Source of the DNA: an uncultured Chromatiaceae bacterium
Lineage (GTDB): Bacteria > Pseudomonadota > Gammaproteobacteria > Chromatiales > Chromatiaceae
Direction of reading: 5' to 3'
Length of the DNA stretch: 64,000 nt
Assembly (NCBI GenBank): GCA_937923175.1
Contig: CALALB010000014.1
Coordinates: 1 to 64,000, forward strand
This document shows positions 41,573-57,975 of this stretch, piece by piece. A program made the position numbers and the translations under genes. Under the pieces are notes generated by a model. It worked only from the letters and a program-made list of their open reading frames with translations. It made no database searches and was not told the origin of the DNA. Each line of letters starts with the position of its first letter. The stretch's first letter is position 1.

Positions 41573-41731
41573 CCGGCGGCTTGAGGTATGAGGTCAAGGC
41601 GGCATTTGCCCTGGTGGTTGAACCCCAGCGTTATCCTCCTGGTTGAGCAGACTCAGGCAGGGTAAGTGCACGCCTGGGCAAGGCGGTGATGGGTGCCGCC
41701 GGGCATGTCGATTCTCGGAGAGGCAAGGGTA

Positions 41732-42100
41732 ATGGCCAAAACGATCCTGGTCGTGGATGATTCGGCATCCTTTCGCAGCGTGGTCGGGCTTGCGCTCAAG
41801 GGCGCAGGCTATGAGATCATCGAGGCCTGCGATGGTCAGGATGCGCTTGCCAAGCTCGATGGGCGCAAGATCCATCTCATCATCAGTGATGTCAACATGC
41901 CAAACATGGATGGCATCACCCTGGTCAAAGAGATCCGTAAACTCCCCAATTACAAGTTCACCCCAATCATGATGCTGACCACTGAGAGCCAGCCGGAGAA
42001 GAAGGAGGCCGCCCGGGCCGCTGGTGCCAAGGCCTGGTTGGTCAAGCCCTTTCAACCGCCGGCCCTGTTGGATGCAGTCGCCAAGCTGGTCCTCCCCTAG
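41732..42100 (+). CDS. cheY: CheY-like single-domain response regulator
   Basis: This 122-residue receiver domain has the acidic pair D9/D10, phospho-acceptor D53 in IISDVNMPNMDG, T84 and K105 in LVKPF. It has no output domain, so it fits a CheY acting on the flagellar switch or a phosphate sink for the CheA encoded two genes on. The ATG at 41732 follows AGGCAAGGG. It heads the che cluster. Confidence 0.93.
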   Translation: MAKTILVVDDSASFRSVVGLALKGAGYEIIEACDGQDALAKLDGRKIHLIISDVNMPNMDGITLVKEIRKLPNYKFTPIMMLTTESQPEKKEAARAAGAKAWLVKPFQPPALLDAVAKLVLP

Positions 42101-42134: not shown

Positions 42135-42443
42135 ATGAATGCTGCAGGCAAGGACACCCTAAGCGACCGGCTTATCCTGGCCGGTGAACTGACCATCTAT
42201 ACGGTATCCGAGACCTTCAAGCGGGTGCAGGATTATCTCAACCGCCCCCCCCCATATATCCTGGATCTTTCGGGTATCACCGAACTCGACGGTGCTGGAC
42301 TGCAACTCCTGTTATGGTTGCGTGATATGATCTGCGCCCGCGGTGATTCCTTGCGGCTAGCAGGCCAAAGCCCAACGGTGTCTGAGATCTTTGCGCTGTT
42401 GCAGCTGGGATCAAGCTTTGGCGACAGCGGGGGCTGTGCATGA
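42135..42443 (+). CDS. STAS-domain protein of the chemotaxis cluster
   Basis: The 102-residue protein is a lone STAS domain: ILAGELTIYTVSE at the start and ILDLSGITELDGAGLQLLLWLRD in the core. The site phosphorylated in anti-sigma-antagonist relatives (Ser/Thr in DSSG or DTAG) reads DGAG, so it probably is not controlled by phosphorylation. It overlaps cheA by ATGA, implying coupling and a role beside CheA. A run of nine C at 42245-42253 lies in the coding sequence. Confidence 0.85.
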   Translation: MNAAGKDTLSDRLILAGELTIYTVSETFKRVQDYLNRPPPYILDLSGITELDGAGLQLLLWLRDMICARGDSLRLAGQSPTVSEIFALLQLGSSFGDSGGCA

Positions 42444-44599
42444 ATCTGGATAGTGCGCGTCAGGCATTCGCAGCCGAGGTGGCGGAACTCCTTCAATCCA
42501 TGGAGGATGCGCTTTTGGCTTTGGAACAAGACCCGGCGGATCCCGAGGCGTTGAACGCGGTCTTTCGGGCCATGCATACCATCAAGGGTACAGCCGGGGT
42601 CTTCGGCTATGAGCCGATCGTCGCCTTTACCCATGCGGTCGAAGGGCTCATGGAGCAGGTGCGCGCCGGTGAGATTAAGCTGACCGCTGAGCTGATTGCC
42701 GCCTTGCTCGAATGCCGAGACCATACCGATCGTCTGGTGTCTGCCTGTCTGGCCGCTGATTCGCCCGAGGCTGAGCTGGCGCCTGATTTGGTGGGGGCCG
42801 GCGCTGGGTTACTGGCGCGGCTTGCCCAAGGACGCCCATCGTCTGCCTCCTCGCCGCCTGTTCAGTCTAAGCATCTGCCGATCGGTCGCGATCTGTGGAT
42901 GATCAGCCTGCGTTTTACCTGTGATGCCTTCCGGCATGGGATCGATCCCCTGTCCTTTCTCCGTTATCTCGCCTCATTAGGTGAGTTAGTCCATGTCACC
43001 GTGCGTCTCGATCCCGAGGCCGGCTGTACCCCGGGCTTTGATCCCGAGACCTGTTATCTCCAGTTTGGGATCGGTTTTCGCGGGGATGTCGATAAACCTC
43101 GGCTGGCGAGCGTCTTTGAGTTTGCCGATCAGGACTGCGAAATCCGCATCCTCGAGCCTGATAGCGCCCATGCCAAATATCTCGAGTTACTCGATACCCT
43201 CCCGGCTGAGCAGGTCGGTTGCATCGGCGAGCTTTTGGTGCGCATCGGCGCGCTGACCCAGGCCGAGCTGGAGCGCGCCCTGGCCATCCAGTCTGCCGAA
43301 GGTGGACAGCGGCGCATCGGTGAGATCCTGGTTGACCAGGGCTCGATCAAGCCGGCCGTGGTTGAACAAGCGGCCCGGGTGCAGGCCGCGGCGCGCAATC
43401 GCGTGCAAGAGGAGGCGCGCTTTATCCGAGTCGATGCCCAGCGTCTTGGGCATCTCATCGATCTAATCGGCGAGCTAGTCACCAGCAGCGCAGCCATTCG
43501 CGTCATGGCCAAGCGCGCCGGCATCGAGGCCCTGGATGAGGTGGTGGATGGGGTCGATTATCTGGTCTCCGAGATCCGCGATCAGGCCCTACAGCTGCGC
43601 ATGGTACCGATCGGCGATACCTTTTCGCGCTTTAAACGGGTGGTGCGCGATGCGGCGCAAGAGCTCGGCAAACAGATCGAGCTGGTCATCAATGGCGCTG
43701 AAACCGAGCTCGATAAGACCGTGGTCGAAAAGATGGTCGATCCGCTCACCCATCTGATCCGCAACGCTATTGATCACGGGATCGAGCCGCCTCATGTGCG
43801 CATCGCCCAGGGTAAACCCTCACAGGGGACGATCGCGCTCACCGCCTACCATGATTCTGGCCATATCGTCATCGAGATCGCTGACGATGGGGCGGGTCTG
43901 AATACGGCAAAGATCCGCGCCAAGGCCGAAGCCTTGGGGTTGGTTCGGCCTGATGAGACCCTCGCCCGGGAAGAGATCTTAAACTTGATCTTTGTCCCCG
44001 GTCTGTCCACTAAGGAACAGGCCACCAATCTCTCGGGGCGCGGGGTGGGGATGGATGTGGTCAAGCGCAATATCGAGGCCCTGCGCGGCACGATCGAGCT
44101 GGCGAGCGAGCCAGGCCAAGGAACGCGGTTTACGATCGCCCTGCCTTTGACCCTGGCCATCATCGACGGCTTTATGGTCGGTGCTGGTGACGGACAATAT
44201 GTCATTCCCCTGGCCCAGGTGGTCGAATGCGTCGAACTCCAACCAGAACAGGGCAGTGGGAGACATGGGCATTATGTCAACCTGCGTGGCGAGGTCATGC
44301 CCTTTATCCGGCTCATTGAACTCTTTGGCCCTGGACGATCCTTATCGAGCCAGAGACGCGAGAGTCTGGTGGTGGTGCGTTTTGGCCATCACAAGATTGC
44401 TCTGGTGGTCGATGCGCTCTATGGCGAACTGCAGGCGGTGATCAAACCGCTCGGCAAGGTCTTTGAGCAGCTCAAAGGCATTGCCGGTGCGACTATCCTA
44501 GGCACCGGTGAGATCGCCTTGATCCTCGATGTTGCTGAATTGGCGGCCATTGCAACCGAGCAGCCTCTGATGACTCGAGGGGTCGGGGCTGCCGTTTGA
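42440..44599 (+). CDS. cheA: Chemotaxis histidine kinase CheA
   Basis: CheA autophosphorylates in response to receptor arrays and feeds CheY and CheB. The 719 residues contain an HPt domain (1-105) with H46 in [10 protein letters not shown]; a P2-like segment about 150-245 ([20 protein letters not shown]); an unusual paired motif at 262-316 ([39 protein letters not shown]); the dimerisation helices (325-390); an HATPase domain with [21 protein letters not shown] and GRGVGMDVV; and a C-terminal CheW-like domain. There is no fused receiver. It overlaps the STAS gene, and an MCP gene follows. Confidence 0.95.
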
Positions 44600-44640
44600 G
44601 ATCAAAGGCTTATGAGCAAAGCTGCAAGGGGAATGGCTTT

Positions 44641-46587
44641 ATGGCGCGTTCGATGACCATGTTCCAGAAGCTCAGTCTGGGATTTGCGACGGTTATATTA
44701 CTGCTCGTGATCCTGGGCGTTCTGTCCTATGCCACGATCCAGAGAAATTCGGACAGTTTCGAGTATTACAGCGAGCGGACCGATCGCTCTAATCGGATGG
44801 GTGAGATGCAGGCTGCCATGCTTATGGGACGGATTAAGGTCAAGGATTATCTCAAGACCCATAGCGAGCAGGATGTGGCCGAACTCAGACAATATTTGAA
44901 GAAGACCCAAGATGGCCTCGATGAGATGATACGGCTCCTCAAAAACCCCGAGCGTCAGGCTAAGCTCAAAAGGGCGGCGGACCAGGTTGAAGCCTATGGC
45001 AAGACCTTCGAGCAGAGCGTGGCCCTGACCAACCAGGCCGACAAGCTGGATACCGAAATACTGATCGTCGATGGCAAGGCATGCGAGCAGGCGCTCACCA
45101 AGCTGTTGGAAGAGTCCAGTCAAGCCAATGATGCCGAAGGCGCCCTTTATGCAGCGCGTGCCCTGCGTTCGCTGCTGGTCGGGCGTATCCATGTGCGCTA
45201 TTTCATAGAGAACAATGACCCCAAAGAAGCCGAACATGTCGATCGGGAATGGGCCGCGCTCAACCAATACCTTCAGGAGCTGGATCGCCGGGTACAACAT
45301 GCCGAGCTGCACGCATTGGTCAGCGAGGCCAGACGTCTGAAGGATAGTTACAAGGCTGCCTTCGATCGAATCGTGCAGCTTATGCTCGAGCGTAAGCGAC
45401 TCGTCGAGCAGAGCCTGAATGTCTGGGGGCCTCAGTTTGCTGCCGAGATCGATGGGATCCGGTCTTCTTATAAACAGGAACTAGAGGCCTTAGGCGAAGA
45501 ATTCCAAGCATCCAATCGGCGCACGAGACTGATCGTCACGGCGCTCTCTATCGCTGCTGTACTCCTAGGGATCCTCATTGCATGGCTCATTATCCGCAGC
45601 ATCATGGCCCAGCTTGGCAAGGATCCGGCTATAATCGCCGAGATAAGCCGCCAGGTCGCCTCGGGCAACCTCGCGCTTGAATTCGACCAAACCAGACTGC
45701 GCGGCGTTTATAAGGACATGTCAGAGATGGTCGAACGGCTACGCCAGATTGTCAGCGAGGTGCGTGCAGGCGCCGATAATCTATCCTCGGCCTCGAGCCA
45801 GGTGAGTGCAACCGCCCAGTCGCTGAGCCAGAGTGCAACCGAACAGGCGGCGAGCGTCGAAGAGACGAGCTCGAGCGTGGAGCAACTCAATGCCTCGGTC
45901 CAACAGAATGCCGAGAATGCGCGATTGACCAATGGGATGGCGAGAAGTTCGGCAGAAGAGGCGCGGCGCGGCGGCGAGGCAGTGGCGCGGACGGTGGCGG
46001 CGATGAAAGAGATCGCCAACAAGATCGGTCTGATCGAGGACATCGCCTACAAGACCAATCTCTTGGCGTTGAATGCGGCCATCGAGGCGGCACGCGCTGG
46101 CGAGCATGGCAAGGGCTTTACTGTGGTCGCTGCCGAGGTGCGCAAGCTTGCTGAAAACAGCGGCTCGACCGCGCAAGAGATCAATCAATTGGCGACCAAC
46201 AGCCTGGTGATCGCCGAGGAGGCCGGGCGCTTGTTAGAGCAGATGGTACCCAACATCATCAAAACGGCCGATTTGGTCGAAGAGATCACCGCGGCCTCGG
46301 CTGAGCAGGCCCAGGGGATTGCCCAGATCACCGAGGCGATGAACCAGTTGGATAAGGCGACCCAGCAGAATGCCTCCGCCTCAGAGGAATTGGCAGCGAC
46401 GGCGCAGGAACTCAATGGTCAGGCGAGTCAATTGCAGGAGACCATGGGGTTCTTTCGGCTTGGCACGGCTGTGGGCGCTGGCGGGGGACGGGCGCGGGTG
46501 CAGCCAATGTCCTCGGTGTCCGCAGGGCGAGGGCGCGAGGCGACCGAGGTGATCGAGTTCGATCCCAAGGACTTTGAGCGCTTTTAG
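44641..46587 (+). CDS. Methyl-accepting chemotaxis protein, HBM-like sensor
   Basis: This 648-residue receptor has a membrane helix near 13-31, a roughly 265-residue all-helical periplasmic domain that looks like a helical bimodular (HBM) sensor, a second membrane helix near 300-322, a HAMP-like linker and a long cytoplasmic signalling coiled coil. The hairpin tip is intact: [26 protein letters not shown] sensors in characterised receptors bind organic acids; the ligand here is unknown. The last residues are DFERF, resembling the xWxxF tether for CheR/CheB but with Phe for Trp. The ATG at 44641 follows AAGGGG. Confidence 0.92.
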
Positions 46588-46598
46588 AGGGTACCACC

Positions 46599-47153
46599 AT
46601 GGGCGAACTCATAGCGGTACAGCGCAGCGGGGTGCATCTCGATCTCAATGCCGAGGTCGGTCAGTACCTGACCTTTATAGTCGCCAGTGAGCGCCTGGCG
46701 GTCCCAATCGAGGTGGTCAAAGAGATCATCGAGCTGCCAGCGATCACCCGGGTGCCCATGACCCCGGAGGCGATCCGCGGGGTGATCAATCTGCGCGGGT
46801 CGGTGGTGCCGGTGATCGATCTGGGGGCGCGTTTGGTCCGCAGGCCGATTGCCCCAACCCGACGCAGCTGTATCGTGCTGGTCGAGGTTCAGGCGGGCGA
46901 GGATGGACAGGTCTTGGGGATGCTGGTCGATGAGGTCAAGAATATCCTCGAGATTGAGCGCGAAGACATCAAACCGCCGCCGAGCTTTGGCGCTACGATC
47001 CGAACCGATTTCATCGCTGCCATGGGTCGGGTGGACGAGATCTTTGTGATTATCCTGGATGTCGATCAGCTCCTCTCTATCCAGGAGCTTGCCGCTCTGC
47101 GCGCCCTGAGCGCCGAGCCGGTGGCGGCCAGGGTTGAGGATGGCGCTGCTTGA
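46599..47153 (+). CDS. cheW: Chemotaxis coupling protein CheW
   Basis: CheW links receptors to CheA in the signalling array. The 184-residue protein has the CheW fold: YLTFIVASERLAVPIEVVKEII, the conserved RGVINLRGSVVPVIDL, and MLVDEVKNILEIEREDIKPPP. A 20-residue N-terminal and a C-terminal Ala-rich tail extend the domain. It overlaps cheR by 14 bases, so the two are coupled. Confidence 0.95.
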   Translation: MGELIAVQRSGVHLDLNAEVGQYLTFIVASERLAVPIEVVKEIIELPAITRVPMTPEAIRGVINLRGSVVPVIDLGARLVRRPIAPTRRSCIVLVEVQAGEDGQVLGMLVDEVKNILEIEREDIKPPPSFGATIRTDFIAAMGRVDEIFVIILDVDQLLSIQELAALRALSAEPVAARVEDGAA

Positions 47154-47982
47154 GGTTGAACGGGCACCGACCCCAGCGCCGATCGCGCTGGACGAGGCTG
47201 GCTTTTGGCGTCTGACCCAGTTCATCCGGGGGAAGACGGGTATTGTGCTAACCTCCGCTAAACGCCCGATGGTCAGCGCCCGCCTTCAGCGGCGTCTGCG
47301 CGAGCTGGGTTGTGATAGCCTGTCTGCCTATCTCGATCGGGCGCTGGCGCCTGATCAGGCCAGCGAGCGCCAGCTGCTCATCGATCTCCTGACCACCAAC
47401 GAGACCTTCTTTTATCGCGAGCCGCCTCATTTTGAATATCTGATTGCAGAGGTCCTCCCGAGCTATCGGGGACATGGGGTGCGTGCCTGGAGCGCTGCCT
47501 GTTCCTCGGGCGAGGAGGCCTATACCTTGGCGATGGCCTGTGCTGAGGTCTTGGGCGCGGGGGATTGGTCGGTATTGGGGACCGACATCAACGCCCAGGT
47601 CCTTGATCAGGCGCGTTTGGGCCTTTATCCCCTGGAGCGCGCCCGCCATCTCCCGCGCCCCTGGCTTGAACGCTATTGTCTCAAAGGGGTAAGACGCCAT
47701 ACCGGGAAGATTTTGATCGATCCCCGGCTGAAGGCGCGGGTGCGCTGGGACCGGCATAATCTATTGCAGCCGCGGCGCGAGGACGCGCCCTTCGACATCG
47801 TGTTTTTGCGCAATGTATTGATCTATTTCGATCGCCCCATCAAACAGCGGGTTATCGATTGTATCTATGAAGCGATCCGGCCTGGCGGTTGGCTATTCAT
47901 CAGTCATGTCGAATCGCTGCATGGTCTTGTGACACCTCTGGTGATGCAGCGGCCTTCGATCCTCCGTCGTCCACCCTGTTGA
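47140..47982 (+). CDS. cheR: Chemotaxis receptor methyltransferase CheR
   Basis: CheR methylates glutamates on receptors with SAM during adaptation. The 280-residue protein has the N-terminal helical domain (IRGKTGIVLTSAKRPMVSARL), TTNETFFYREPPHF, the SAM motif RAWSAACSSGEEAYTLAM, a GTDINAQVLDQA acidic strand and IVFLRNVLIYFD. The frame opens at a TTG at 47134; the ATG at 47140 is preferred. cheD starts 6 bases after its stop. Confidence 0.95.
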   Translation: MALLEVERAPTPAPIALDEAGFWRLTQFIRGKTGIVLTSAKRPMVSARLQRRLRELGCDSLSAYLDRALAPDQASERQLLIDLLTTNETFFYREPPHFEYLIAEVLPSYRGHGVRAWSAACSSGEEAYTLAMACAEVLGAGDWSVLGTDINAQVLDQARLGLYPLERARHLPRPWLERYCLKGVRRHTGKILIDPRLKARVRWDRHNLLQPRREDAPFDIVFLRNVLIYFDRPIKQRVIDCIYEAIRPGGWLFISHVESLHGLVTPLVMQRPSILRRPPC

Positions 47983-47988
47983 TCCCTT

Positions 47989-48576
47989 ATGGTGGATGGG
48001 CTCAAACGCCACTTTCTCTATCCAGGCGATTATTTCGTCACCGCCAAGCCGATGATCCTCAGTACCCTGCTTGGTTCCTGTGTGGCAGTCTGTCTCTTTG
48101 ATCCAGAGGCTAGGGTGATGGGGATGAATCATTTCTTATTGCCGATGCGTCACCACGCAAACCGCGAGCCTTTATTGGCGACCGAGGCTGGGCGTTATGG
48201 CGTCTGGGCCATGGAGATCCTGATCAATGGGTTGATCAAACAGGGCGCCCAGCGCGAGCATCTTAAGGCCAAGGCATTTGGTGGCGCCAATATGCTCACT
48301 ACCCAGGGAAAGGGCTCAAACCATTTCAACATCGGTGCCGCTAATGTCTCATTCGTGCTCGATTTCTTGAAACGGGACGGGATCCCATTGGTGGCGCAAG
48401 ATCTAGGCGGGTTGCATGGACGGCAGATCCATTTCCATGGCGGCGATTATTCTGTCTTCGTGCGCCGGATCACGCGTTCGGGGATTGAGACCCTGGTGCG
48501 CGATGAAGAGCGCTATCTCAACCGAGCATCCGGGCAGAGGTACCAGCAAGCGGATAGCTCGGCTGAGTTCTTTTAA
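47989..48576 (+). CDS. cheD: Receptor glutamine deamidase CheD
   Basis: CheD deamidates receptor glutamines so they can be methylated. The 195-residue protein shows the catalytic triad region: STLLGSCVAVCLFD (Cys), GMNHFLLP (His), and the later GGANML and NIGAANVSF segments. It ends the first part of the che cluster; a peptidase gene on the opposite strand separates it from cheB. Confidence 0.93.
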   Translation: MVDGLKRHFLYPGDYFVTAKPMILSTLLGSCVAVCLFDPEARVMGMNHFLLPMRHHANREPLLATEAGRYGVWAMEILINGLIKQGAQREHLKAKAFGGANMLTTQGKGSNHFNIGAANVSFVLDFLKRDGIPLVAQDLGGLHGRQIHFHGGDYSVFVRRITRSGIETLVRDEERYLNRASGQRYQQADSSAEFF

Positions 48577-48593: not shown

Positions 48594-49763
48594 TCAATCC
48601 GTCTGGGCATAAGATTCTATGAATTCATCCCAATACGTTGCTTGAGAAAAGGTCAGTTTTTCCCTGTAGTATTCAAAATCAAACCAATCTGCAGAGGATG
48701 GTTCATCAAGGTCCCCTGGCCGGCGGGGCCAAAAGATGCTGATCCCGCGGGCCCTGGGTAAGGACACGCGGTGAGATTCAGCAAGCACAACGCCCAGCGC
48801 TGCTTGGATGACCCTATCGCAGGCGGCCTGGATCTCGGGATCTGGCACCTGGGATTTGATTTGGATAGCGGCATCGATGAGATCCTTGAATAAGGGATCA
48901 TCGAATCCTTGGGTCCTTTCCCAGGCGATATCATAAAGTCTTTTATAATACGGCAGTCCAGTATACAAAACATGGGACCATCGATCTATTGCTGTGGCCA
49001 ATTCATCCCAGCCCTGGTCGAGTTTGATCGCAGAAATTGCCCTATCGGTATTCATGCTTCGATAAAAACTGAATGCCAGGGATTCCGCGGGCATATCGGG
49101 TTGCTCATGGAGTGCTGCCAAGACCCTATGGTAATTGAAACCTCGGCCGCTGACCGTTTCTTGCGAAGCAATGATATAGTCGGCATATTCCCTGAGGGTT
49201 GCCTGGACCTCAATGGTTTGCATGAGACAGGCGTCGAATGCGATCAGATCCAAATGACCAATCGCCTCAAGTGCCGCCAGGAGCTCATCCAGATCAAGCG
49301 CATCCTGATCTGTTTGATCCCAAAGATTTTGCGAAGGCCGCCATCCCCAGCCATGTCCCCACAGGACTAGGGCATAGCGCTGGGCGGGGTAAAAGGATTT
49401 AGACCATTGGATAAAATCGACCAATGTTTGAGGATCGCCCAGATTTCTCTCACCCCAATCTTCTATGGCATTTTGGACACTGGCCTTGGTGCCAGGCTCG
49501 ATATAAAAAAGCTTGGTCGAGGTCCAGTTGCCGCTCCCTCGATAGCCACCGCCCTTGCGGTCGGCTAAGGTTAAGACATGAATACCATTTCCCGATCCAT
49601 AGCGACCCAGTTCCCGGTTGATATCATGGGTAATATAGGATTCGAGGTCATTGTCTCCGCTCATATAGATCATGAGCGTCCAATGGGCGAGATCCTCGGC
49701 ACTGGCATCAAGGGATGTCCAAGACAGCAGGATTAAGGCCAATAGGTGATAAATTTTGATCAT
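48594..49763 (-). CDS. Secreted clostripain-like (C11) cysteine peptidase
   Basis: This 389-residue protein has a signal peptide (hydrophobic LLALILLSW, cut near ASA-ED) and the C11/clostripain pattern: LMIYMSGDNDLESY at the start of the domain, catalytic histidine in LWGHGWGW, and catalytic cysteine in IAFDACLMQ. It should cleave after basic residues by family knowledge. It lies in the opposite direction between cheD and cheB, with only 17 bases to cheD, and its base composition is visibly more AT-rich than the flanking genes. That suggests insertion into an older cheD-cheB junction. Confidence 0.88.
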   Translation of the reverse strand: MIKIYHLLALILLSWTSLDASAEDLAHWTLMIYMSGDNDLESYITHDINRELGRYGSGNGIHVLTLADRKGGGYRGSGNWTSTKLFYIEPGTKASVQNAIEDWGERNLGDPQTLVDFIQWSKSFYPAQRYALVLWGHGWGWRPSQNLWDQTDQDALDLDELLAALEAIGHLDLIAFDACLMQTIEVQATLREYADYIIASQETVSGRGFNYHRVLAALHEQPDMPAESLAFSFYRSMNTDRAISAIKLDQGWDELATAIDRWSHVLYTGLPYYKRLYDIAWERTQGFDDPLFKDLIDAAIQIKSQVPDPEIQAACDRVIQAALGVVLAESHRVSLPRARGISIFWPRRPGDLDEPSSADWFDFEYYREKLTFSQATYWDEFIESYAQTD

Positions 49764-49820
49764 GGTCAGGGACCCTAGATTTTAGGCAATGATTTGAACC
49801 TCGAAAGTGGGCGACAGCAG

Positions 49821-50930
49821 ATGGCGATCCGGGTTTTGATCGTCGATGATTCGGCCGTAGTCCGGCAAGTCCTCACCGAGCAGCTGGCTGCAATCGCTGG
49901 CATCGAGGTGATAGGGGCGGCGCGCGACCCATTGTTCGCGCGCCAGCTCATGGCCAAACAATGGCCGGATGTCATCGTGCTCGATATCGAGATGCCGCGC
50001 ATGGACGGTCTGACCTTTTTGCGCCAGCTGATGAACGAGCGTCCCACGCCAGTAGTGATCTGTTCGACCCTGGCCGAGGCAGGTTCAGACATCGCGTTGC
50101 AGGCACTGAGCGCCGGGGCCGTTGACATCATCGCCAAGCCCAAATTGGGGCTGCGCCAATTTTTGGAAGAGTCGCGAACCCTCTTAGGGGATACGATCAG
50201 GGCCGCAGCCCAGGCGCGTCTGGATCGGCGCCCAGTGTTTGGCCCTTCCCGAGGCGCGGCCGCCTCTGTCTCCTTGGCAGCCGATGTCGTTTGCAGCGGC
50301 GAACGTCCCCCCCCGGTCGGGACCACAGAGCGGGTAGTCGCGATCGGGACCTCGACCGGCGGGACCCAGGCGCTTGAATATATCCTGACGCGGCTACCGC
50401 GCACGGTCCCAGGGATCGTCATCGTCCAGCACATGCCGGCTCAGTTTACCGCTGCCTTTGCCGCGCGTTTAAATCAACTTTGCGCGATCGAGGTGCGCGA
50501 GGCATGCGATGGCGAGCGGGTCCTGCCCGGTCTGGCGCTGATCGCCCCGGGCAATGCCCATCTGCTGCTGCGGCGCAGCGGGGCGCAATATCGGGTCGAG
50601 GTCAAGGGTGGGCCCTTGATCAGCCGCCATCGCCCATCGGTCAATGTATTATTCCGCTCCACGGCCCAGGCAGCCGGACCCAATGCCATCGGGATCATCA
50701 TGACCGGTATGGGCGATGATGGGGCCAGGGGTCTTCTCGAGATGCATCAGGCTGGTGCCTTGACCATCGCCCAGGATGAACAAAGCTGTGTCGTCTATGG
50801 GATGCCCAAAGAGGCGGTCAAGCTGGGCGCCGTGGATGCCGTGTTGACTTTGGAACAGCTCCCCGCCCTCATTTGCCAGGCGCCGACCCGCTTCGAATAT
50901 CATCAACGCCCTCAGGCCATTACACCTTGA
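49821..50930 (+). CDS. cheB: Receptor methylesterase CheB
   Basis: CheB removes methyl groups from receptors and is activated by CheA. The 369-residue protein has an N-terminal receiver with D9/D10 and D55 in [11 protein letters not shown], a linker, and the esterase domain with nucleophile Ser in IGTSTGGTQ, His in IVQHMPAQF and Asp in [11 protein letters not shown]. The linker has a run of eight C (50307-50314). The frame opens at TTG 49794; the ATG at 49821 gives the domain start. It overlaps the convergent heme-MCP gene by 11 bases. Confidence 0.95.
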
Positions 50931-52536
50931 ATTGACCGACCAGCTCTTGCAGTTCGCTGGCCAGCTGCGCTACCTGCTCAGAGGACTCGGCGGTCTGCTG
51001 GGCCGCCCGGGCATTGTCCTCGGCGGCATCCGAGATGCCGGTGACATTGCGGCTCATCTCCTCGGTAACTGCGCTTTGTTCTTCAGCAGAACTGGCGACC
51101 TGGGCATTCACATCATTGAGGGTATTGACTGCATGAGCGATATCATCAAGCGCCTCGCCGGCCGCAAGCGCTCGATCGCGGTTGTCTAAGGCTAGACGCC
51201 GGCTTTCATCCATGGTCGCGACTGCCCGGCGGCTGGCCTCCTGGAGACGCTCGATCATCGCCTGGATCTCCTGGGTTGAGGTCTGGGTTCGGTTGGCAAG
51301 CGCCCGCACCTCATCGGCAACGACCGCAAAGCCTCGCCCCGCCTCGCCGGCGCGCGCCGCCTCGATCGCGGCATTCAATGCCAGCAGATTGGTCTGATCG
51401 GCCACCTCGCGGATCACATCCAGGATCTTCCCGATCGCTTGGCTATCCTGGCCGAGCGCATCGATGACCTCAGCAGCCTGCTGAATCTCGGCGGCCAATT
51501 CATCGATATGGGCCATGGTATCGCCGACGATCTGTTTACCAGTTGCAGCCGCCATCTGGACAGTCTGGGTGACATCGGCGCCGTGCTGGGCGCTGCGCGC
51601 GACCTCTTGCGCGGTTGCGCTCATCTCTTGCATGGCTGAGGCCAGTTGATCGATCTCCTGGCGTTGGCTGGCGATGCGGCTGGTGGTTTGATCGGTCGCT
51701 TGGGCGAGATCGCGCGCGGCCCGAGCGAGTTGGTGGGTCGATTTCAGGACCCGCGCGATCAGTTCGTGGAAGTTGTCCATCATGGCATTGAAGGCGCTGC
51801 AGGCGCGCCCGATCTCGTCTTGGCCCTTAACCAATAAGCGTTGGCTAAGATCGCCACGACCCCGGGCGATCCCCTCAAGCCCCTGGGTCATCTGCTGGAG
51901 AGGGCGGGTGACGAAATGCTTGGTGAAGAGATACAGCAATACCAGAACGGGTATGCTCAAGGCACCGGCGATCGCAAAGAGCTTGAGCGCAAACAACCGC
52001 ACCGAGCGATTGACCTCCTCCAGATTGATCCGCAGGCTGACCGCCCCCAAGACCGAATCGCGCGGGGCCAGGGCATGACAGGTTGTGCAGTTCTTGCCGA
52101 GATAGTTCTCGCGGGCAAAGGCAGGCATCACCGCGCGGAGGCTGCGCCTGTCCTCGGCAAGCTGGATATAGGGCTCGCCGGTCGCCAAGACCTGGCGTTC
52201 GATCTCATCGCGCGGCTGTTCTTGAGCGGTACCGGGTCCGAACTGTTTGGCGACGTGCTCGCCGCGCAAGACCCTTAAATCCTCGACATTGGCCAGTTCC
52301 ACGATCTGATCGAGAAAGGCGGCGCGCTGATTGATGGTGCCGGTAATCATCAGGGTCGTGAGACCAGCCAGGGTCATTTCATGCAGGGTGTGGGTAAAGA
52401 CAGTCGCTTGGTCGATCGCAGTCTGACGCTGCTCATTGGCCGCCCAGAGGATGAGGCCGCTCCAGGCGGGAAAGAGGATCAACCAGAGCGCGCCCACTAG
52501 TCTGATCCAGATCGGCAGATCGTTGAATCGCGGCAT
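50920..52536 (-). CDS. Methyl-accepting chemotaxis protein with a c-type heme site
   Basis: This 538-residue receptor has a membrane helix near 11-32, a periplasmic domain of about 150 residues, a second helix near 182-205, a HAMP domain ([21 protein letters not shown]) and a signalling domain with [23 protein letters not shown]. The periplasmic domain contains C150-T-T-C153-H154, the covalent heme c attachment motif, just before the second helix. Such receptors can sense redox state, oxygen or nitric oxide. The ATG at 52536 is preferred over the upstream in-frame ATG at 52584. It is convergent with cheB. Confidence 0.93.
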
Positions 52537-52591
52537 CTCCGAGTCCTCGTAGGGGTGATGAGTCGCGGCACCTCGACCGCGCAAGGCTCAT

Positions 52592-57027: not shown

Positions 57028-57060
57028 ACCGCCTTGCCCATGAGGGGGAGGGCCAAAACC

Positions 57061-57975
57061 ATGCTTCTCAATTCTATCAATCCCGCGATTCGGCCTGGGG
57101 TATCCGTGTTGCGCCCGGCCGGCTTACAGGGGACAGCTACAGCCTCCAATGCCAATCCCTCGACACCCGTCTCTGATCCCGAGGATCTCAATGCCGAGAT
57201 CCGGGCCCAGGTCGAACAGGATCCAGACTATCAGATCCTGCGCCGAGCCTTTAAGCTGAGCGGTGAGCTGGATGAGCGCAGCGATGACTCTGTCAGCCCC
57301 CCCCAGGTCCAATCTGGCGAACCCGAGCCATTCATCATGCCGAAACCGCCGCCAGGGTTGCAGGTACAGGGCCTGCAGATCCAAATCTCTCAGCGATTCG
57401 AACTTGCGATCCACGTCGAGGGCAGCGCCGTTGTCTTCCAGCAGCTTGCGCTTGAGATTAACGGGCAGAGCGTCCAGCAAGGCGATCCCTTGGTGCTCGA
57501 TCTCGGCGGGCGGGGTATCACCACCACTGGGATCAGCGACGGGGTTGACTTTGATCTCGATGGCGACGGTCGGCTCGAGCGCATGAGCACAGTCTATGGC
57601 CAGACCTGGTTTTTGGCCCTCGACCATAACGACAATGGTCGCATCGATGACGGACGCGAGCTCTTCGGTGACCAAAACGGGGCCGCGCATGGATTTGCCG
57701 AGCTTGGGCGCTATGACGACAATGGAGACGGACGCATCGATCGCCAGGATCAGGTCTTTAGCCGTTTGCGTCTGCTCCAACTTGGGGCTAGGGGTACCCA
57801 AGACATCCAGACGCTCGATCAGGCAGGAGTCAAGGCGATCGAATTGAATTATCGGGAGGTGCAAAGGGCGCTTTCGACCTATGATCAAATCGCCCAGAGC
57901 GGGCGTTTCGTCCGCGCCGATGGAACGACAGGTGAGGCGGCTGATCTATTGCTCGGCTATCGACGGCTCGTTTGA
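57061..57975 (+). CDS. Protein with EF-hand/calcium-type Asp-rich repeats
   Basis: The 304-residue protein has a disordered N-terminal third and then three Asp-rich loops: DFDLDGDGRLE, LDHNDNGRIDDGRELFGD and YDDNGDGRIDRQD. These resemble calcium-binding loops seen at the ends of large secreted adhesins and hemolysins, but here the protein is short and has no clear signal peptide. The gene follows the PilZ gene by 33 bases, so c-di-GMP and calcium signals may meet in this unit; that is inference. The ATG at 57061 is chosen over 57034 because it starts the hydrophobic/Ser-rich region after an AGGG. Confidence 0.7.
   Translation: MLLNSINPAIRPGVSVLRPAGLQGTATASNANPSTPVSDPEDLNAEIRAQVEQDPDYQILRRAFKLSGELDERSDDSVSPPQVQSGEPEPFIMPKPPPGLQVQGLQIQISQRFELAIHVEGSAVVFQQLALEINGQSVQQGDPLVLDLGGRGITTTGISDGVDFDLDGDGRLERMSTVYGQTWFLALDHNDNGRIDDGRELFGDQNGAAHGFAELGRYDDNGDGRIDRQDQVFSRLRLLQLGARGTQDIQTLDQAGVKAIELNYREVQRALSTYDQIAQSGRFVRADGTTGEAADLLLGYRRLV

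Follow-up and report, generated by a model that had tools for sequence, protein, structure and literature searches.

Chemoreceptors that carry a covalent heme c in a periplasmic sensor domain have been characterised in Geobacter, where excerpts of the study of GSU0935 and GSU0582 (PMC8396549) describe crystal structures of both domains. His144-Met60 ligation was seen in one of the two hemes of GSU0935, whereas water was the distal ligand of its second heme and of the GSU0582 heme. In both domains Met60 is bound in the reduced state and released upon oxidation, a redox-linked ligand switch placed at −156 and −251 mV, and CO and NO displace Met60 from the reduced domains (PMC8396549, excerpts). 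Sensors with a heme motif similar to that of GSU0935 have been reported for Anaeromyxobacter (excerpt of PMC3831638). The sCache_heme domains, in turn, are described with their CxxCH motif in an insertion between strands β3 and β4 (excerpt of PMC12889525).

The predicted heme c chemoreceptor that we compared with these systems is encoded in a 64,000-nucleotide stretch of contig CALALB010000014.1 from an uncultured Chromatiaceae bacterium, referred to here as the window. The open frame spans positions 50920-52584 on the minus strand and, with the ATG at 52536, corresponds to a gene (50920..52536, minus strand) for 538 aa plus the stop codon; intact orthologues have open frames of 540-627 aa. 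An earlier note on this DNA had regarded the protein as an otherwise standard MCP, and hydropathy and Pfam bear this out. The first transmembrane segment (TM1, 52444..52512, approximately residues 9-31, from hydropathy and the AF2 model) begins a long helix of residues 9-64 and is followed by the periplasmic sensor domain (52021..52443, approximately residues 32-172). The second transmembrane segment (TM2, 51925..51996, approximately residues 181-204, from hydropathy and AF2 helix 173-204) leads to a HAMP domain (51766..51918, residues 207-257; PF00672, E 4.2e-15, 56.3 bits against a cut-off of 25) and to the MCP signalling domain (51031..51576, residues 321-502; PF00015, E 2.2e-41, 142 bits against a cut-off of 34.6), all of them on the minus strand.

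Window positions 52075-52089 (minus strand), reverse-complemented (TGCACAACCTGTCAT), encode CTTCH at residues 150-154, the sole CxxCH of the 538-aa receptor, in which Cys150 and Cys153 are the predicted thioether residues and His154 the predicted proximal ligand. The motif sits between the two membrane helices, as had been stated before, and away from the cytoplasmic HAMP and MCP part. From the composition of the receptor 0.0003 CxxCH motifs were expected, and one in 20,000 shuffled sequences had one; this test and the conservation among homologues rule out a chance origin, conservation being, on comparison of the sequences, the stronger evidence. CxxCH was kept in all 26 aligned close sequences (the window and 25 orthologues 58-87% identical to it; the set omits the window copy L011, L024, which is like L023, the split L038 and the second G004 copy). 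A search of 146 Chromatiaceae genomes, the receptor's own included, with the first 205 residues of the receptor gave a match in 69 of them, and the 109 resulting rows, all of which were read, represent 108 places when the split G018 gene is counted once and the window's own place is included. Ninety-nine of these places have CxxCH, four of them in copies split by frameshift or stop (L038, L111, L133 and L148), and nine have C-x5-CH; the places were found without a motif pattern, though the similarity scores take in the motif. Loss of CxxCH from orthologues, which the earlier note had named as evidence against its reading, was not observed, and no place among the 108 lacks CH. When 205 aligned segments from 188 loci were considered, 190 reached the motif columns (181 CxxCH and 9 C-x5-CH), the loci being partly non-independent in that L011 is the window, L038 and L177 look like one gene and some apparently belong to the same genome. 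Among relatives from genome_contigs, of which 80 of 244 were kept, the motif was present in 80/80 loci (in L177 in a split copy), a count that is partly by construction because the search used two patterns, of which one stopped at the first Cys.

Comparison of 66 divergent sequences (the window and homologues, with 19-87% identity to it) revealed that only R91, P138, C150, C153 and H154 are invariant, with M63, G100 and G164 conserved in at least 90%. This set derives from 71 homologues plus the window, thinned at 72% identity, minus six C-x5-CH members, and is free of split copies, of L124 and of L123 and L125, which gave no local tblastn match. Of the 205 segments from 188 loci, 192 extend to column 63 and 190 of these have Met there, the exceptions being Gln in L146 and Leu in a second, probably spurious, L121 segment; column 154 was His in 190/190. 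His52, invariant in the 26 close sequences, was rejected as distal ligand, as only 102 of 191 aligned residues in the wider set are His. This variability leads us to prefer Met63 (52348..52350, minus strand), which aligns to Met60 of GSU0935 and GSU0582, as the candidate distal axial heme ligand. The nine C-x5-CH homologues (L121, L128, L130, L134, L136, L137, L138, L139 and L140) have the form C[SA][ED]x[DA]GCH, keep the equivalent of Met63 (LMR) and have a long stretch inserted behind strand 1; seven of them are labelled GGDEF, L121 with confirmation by Pfam. From its sequence, C-x5-CH is a possible non-canonical heme c motif, and the open-access literature matches listed contained no mention of CX5CH or CXXXXXCH.

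The structure prediction proposed in the earlier note was carried out with AF2 and yielded a single-Cache model with pLDDT 95.6 and pTM 0.85 when 66 sequences were used, and pLDDT 83.3 with the 26 close sequences. The model contains, in this order, helix 9-64, helix 68-81, strand 84-91, helices 93-99 and 111-119, strands 123-126 and 132-140, the motif loop, strand 162-171 and helix 173-204, so that in the predicted topology CTTCH lies between the third and fourth strand of the Cache sheet (132-140 and 162-171), in the β3-β4 loop. The best solved Foldseek match was GSU0935 (3b42_B; E 5.8e-6, and E 6.5e-6 with the 26-sequence model), with an alignment rmsd of 14 Å that is perhaps due to a domain-swapped crystal form. 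In VIA-align, Tll0287 (5b82) reached Z 11.1 with rmsd 3.5 over 122 aligned residues, and the top Z values, tied with or above that of Tll0287, belonged to WalK sensors (11.2-13.3, the WalK-YycH model giving 13.3); 3b42 and 3b47 were not among the best 50 VIA rows, an absence that is perhaps due to domain-swapped crystal forms and to which we give no weight. Matches to CitA and DcuS also supported the Cache assignment. The predicted fold, in summary, speaks for a Cache domain, and the motif and the conserved Met speak for heme.

WalK, CitA and DcuS are Cache sensors that we take to be heme-free. The fold they have in common with the receptor, and the nine homologues with another Cys spacing, seven of them labelled GGDEF, would also agree with an ordinary ligand-binding Cache domain devoid of heme, in which the Cys pair forms a disulfide or a metal site. 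We consider this very unlikely, since His after the second Cys in 190/190 segments and Met in 190/192 would be expected for heme ligation but not for a disulfide, the host has a Ccm gene and the solved relatives bind heme. Instead, sequence and model together indicate that the sensing domain very probably holds a covalent heme c, as in the few characterised Geobacter receptors. The original identification of a heme c motif is thus supported by the conservation of CxxCH and by a fold, a motif position and a candidate distal Met that match those of GSU0935 and GSU0582.

As a single sequence, the receptor matched nothing relevant in the PDB (best E 1.7); the two best PDB matches of the 66-member profile were 3b47 (E 7.7e-5) and 3b42 (E 1.4e-4), the sensor domains of GSU0582 and GSU0935, and in both the profile position M63 fell on chain residue 26. 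This residue is Met60 of GSU0935, given that the first Cys of CQSCH, chain residue 106, is Cys140. A profile without the motif segment (48 of the 66 sequences) still ranked 3b42 first at a non-significant E of 0.91, which means that kinship with the Geobacter domains depends, at the sequence level, on the motif for its significance. PF21563 (Mcp40H-20_sensor), whose match to 3b42 and 3b47 scored 142.5 and 159.9 bits, hit the isolated domain below its cut-off (E 0.0013, 19.4 bits against 27) and gave no match at E≤1 in the receptor's own genome. At E≤1 it matched 9/26 close and 25/66 wider sequences, and it exceeded its cut-off in one of 55 related genomes. The receptor has both residue features of the PF21563 type, the CxxCH motif and a Met that corresponds to Met60.

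A search of the full receptor against Pfam returned no match for the sensor domain, and NCBIfam held no family for this domain alone. PF11845, the Tll0287-type model, did not match the window protein at E≤1; at that threshold it matched one of the 26 close sequences (E 0.29) and 15/66 of the wider ones (best E 1.1e-4). One homologue, L124 (G012:C21), exceeds the PF11845 cut-off, indicating that the families run into each other, and a profile-profile comparison with PF11845 domains (21 of the 30 loci L041-L070) gave a probability of 96.8% over only 49 columns around the motif. Excerpts of PMC12889525 place GSU0582 and GSU0935 in Tll0287-like datasets; in our searches 3b47 and 3b42 matched PF21563, and PF11845 did not match them at E≤1. 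The host genome also encodes a stand-alone PF11845 protein in a 221-aa open frame (L058, G000:C18:11919-12410), a type for which redox rather than signalling roles have been proposed (excerpt of PMC12889525). In the alignment to heme-MCP families proposed in the earlier note, the Geobacter domains ranked top by profile and the cut-offs of PF21563 and PF11845 were not reached. Taken together, the Pfam, profile and fold results lead us to group the receptor with the c-heme single-Cache receptors as one kind, outside both Pfam families.

The host genome (2.53 Mb, 91% complete) contains two Photo_RC genes, and Allochromatium provides the nearest named relatives among the matches listed, in agreement with the phototrophic sulfur bacterium assumed in the earlier note. 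It encodes CcmF (E 2.0e-119), flagellin and, on another contig than the receptor, cytochrome c'; no PF00115 (heme-copper oxidase/NorB) match was found in it. This genome has nine other MCP-type matches, and for eight of them (all but L004) the stretch read contains no CxxCH. A che neighbourhood ends beside the receptor gene. Its plus-strand genes include a response regulator, probably cheY (41693..42100), which is followed by a STAS gene, and then cheA (42440..44599), a second MCP of 4HB type without CxxCH (44596..46587), cheW (46599..47153), cheR (47134..47982) and cheD (47989..48576). Between cheD and cheB lies, on the minus strand, a gene for a clostripain-family (C11) peptidase (48594-49763), and cheB (49794..50930, plus strand) runs convergently towards the receptor gene, with an 11-base overlap at the end of the latter. 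Eight of the 80 genome_contigs loci, all Chromatiaceae by title, likewise have three or more of the genes cheB, cheD, cheR and cheA next to the receptor (L149, L151, L153, L154, L155, L160 and L190 with cheB and cheD, and L156 without cheB); no che genes were detected beside the receptor in the other 72 loci, some of which are ended by contig edges. A separate observation concerns an EF-hand-like ORF at 57034-57975, a relative of which lies just upstream of the receptor in 19/80 genome_contigs loci (L205, L216, L226 and 16 more), nearly all of them in Betaproteobacteria-titled loci.

Purple sulfur bacteria inhabit steep oxygen, sulfide and light gradients. We consider it somewhat probable that the receptor is a heme c MCP in which a redox-linked ligand switch at Met63 steers the cell by redox poise. 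One heme c would be attached to the periplasmic single-Cache domain through Cys150 and Cys153, with His154 as proximal and Met63, close to where the long first helix ends, as distal ligand. Oxidation of the periplasm, or binding of a diatomic gas such as NO to the iron, would cause Met63 to release the iron and the first helix to shift against the β sheet; this shift would be relayed via TM2 and HAMP to the kinase-control tip, with an output probably directed to CheA and CheW from the neighbouring cluster. In this way the cell would steer by redox poise.

The distribution of the receptor bears on the nature of the signal. A receptor orthologue (at least 58% identity) occurs in 28/146 family genomes, and eight of the nine family genomes without a PF00115 match carry one, the window's own among them. 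Genomes lacking PF00115 thus make up 8/28 of those with the orthologue and 1/118 of those without it (Fisher P 5.8e-6, uncorrected for relatedness), in a count that covers PF00115 but not bd oxidases and in which two of the nine are less than 85% complete. As PF00115 comprises heme-copper oxidases and NO reductases, the receptor in these genomes is probably not serving respiration through such enzymes, and its presence there favours redox poise or an outside oxidant as the signal.

NO is the main and serious rival to redox poise as the signal. The same heme c receptor would then bind NO at its ferrous heme, with displacement of Met63, and steer the cell away from or towards NO, which we regard as a possible but not a probable reading. 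It draws on the displacement of Met60 by CO and NO in the reduced Geobacter domains (PMC8396549, excerpts) and on a signalling-type sCache_heme protein that binds NO tightly, with a slow koff, but does not give a stable complex with O2; the description of that protein as an NO sensor with a presumed water ligand, rather than as a redox switch, weighs against the redox-switch model (PMC12889525, excerpts). In all eight Azoarcus-titled genome_contigs loci (L182, L200, L211, L217, L218, L220, L225 and L227), moreover, a divergent cytochrome c' gene lies 284-359 bases from the receptor match; PF01322 was tested for L218 only (E 1.3e-34), the other genes being 73-84% identical to that of L218. The cytochrome c' family is known to bind NO. 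Many homologues also belong to Azoarcus, Zoogloea and Dechloromonas, genera containing denitrifiers, and one to 'Candidatus Nitricoxidireducens'. Against an NO signal, this neighbourhood represents a single lineage, and cytochrome c' occurs in 121/146 family genomes anyway (E≤0.001; 115 over the cut-off), which makes its co-occurrence with the receptor uninformative, its gene in the window's genome being located on another contig. In addition, the 8 of 28 orthologue-bearing genomes without a PF00115 match, the window's own included, would have no NO-respiring partner of that family.

Direct sensing of O2 through an oxy complex, leading to aerotaxis, is the weakest part of the reading in the earlier note, which had suggested guidance along oxygen or redox gradients, and we regard it as very unlikely. 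DcrA has been reported as a sensor of O2 concentration or of redox potential (excerpts of PMC3460858 and PMC8396549), but the sCache_heme proteins tested are described as forming no stable O2 complex (excerpt of PMC12889525), and a conserved distal Met would be expected to compete with O2. The redox-linked switch at Met63 is the reading that we prefer.

By title, the genome_contigs relatives belong to Chromatiaceae and Ectothiorhodospira, followed by Gallionellaceae, Sulfuricella, Rhodocyclaceae, Azoarcus, Zoogloea, Dechloromonas and unplaced MAGs. No receptor homologue was found in the phage collection or the viral contigs, and the plasmid collection gave one match, in a record labelled Aeromonas caviae whose length of 4.9 Mb suggests that it is presumably chromosomal. 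As a wider and rather speculative proposal, which we put forward with some doubt, the receptor could be the phototroph end of a Beta- and Gammaproteobacterial lineage of single-Cache heme c sensors with MCP, GGDEF and probably kinase outputs. The conserved distal Met would act as a redox switch. It would steer purple sulfur bacteria, among them those for which our searches gave no heme-copper oxidase or NO reductase of PF00115, by outside redox poise and not by respiration, and one diguanylate-cyclase sublineage would carry its heme c on C-x5-CH. Among the open-access literature matches listed, none dealt with a heme c redox receptor of purple sulfur bacteria or with this receptor in Chromatiaceae. 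The predicted receptor is widespread in Chromatiaceae and adjoins che genes both in the window and in part of the related loci, which makes redox steering testable, and the alignment singles out Met63 as the residue bearing on the ligand-switch model.

Compared with GSU0935 and GSU0582, the receptor has in common the two-TM MCP layout with HAMP and MCP signalling part, a periplasmic PAS/Cache-like domain, a CxxCH ahead of the last strand and a Met of the N-terminal helix aligned to Met60. It differs from them in sequence, with 17-20% identity in the Foldseek alignments and a domain below the PF21563 cut-off, in five extra residues before the motif (YLGKN) and in the length from strand 1 to the motif. 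With DcrA of Desulfovibrio vulgaris, compared here by description only, it shares an MCP architecture with periplasmic heme c, the heme being predicted in our case; DcrA has a cytoplasmic PAS domain and the window receptor has none by Pfam (DcrA from excerpts of PMC8396549). The sCache_heme domains (DUF3365/Tll0287-like) resemble it in the single Cache fold with CxxCH in the β3-β4 insertion, which the AF2 model reproduces and with which the match to 5b82 agrees, and they differ in the distal ligand, which is Cys in Tll0287 (excerpt of PMC12889525) and a predicted Met in the window receptor. Neither Pfam heme-sensor model captures the receptor branch over its cut-off. The receptor is accordingly a new branch, unannotated by Pfam, of a known kind of heme c sensor, and not a new kind; the prediction of a heme c chemoreceptor of this known type is well supported, and what is new lies in the lineage and in a testable ligand-switch residue.
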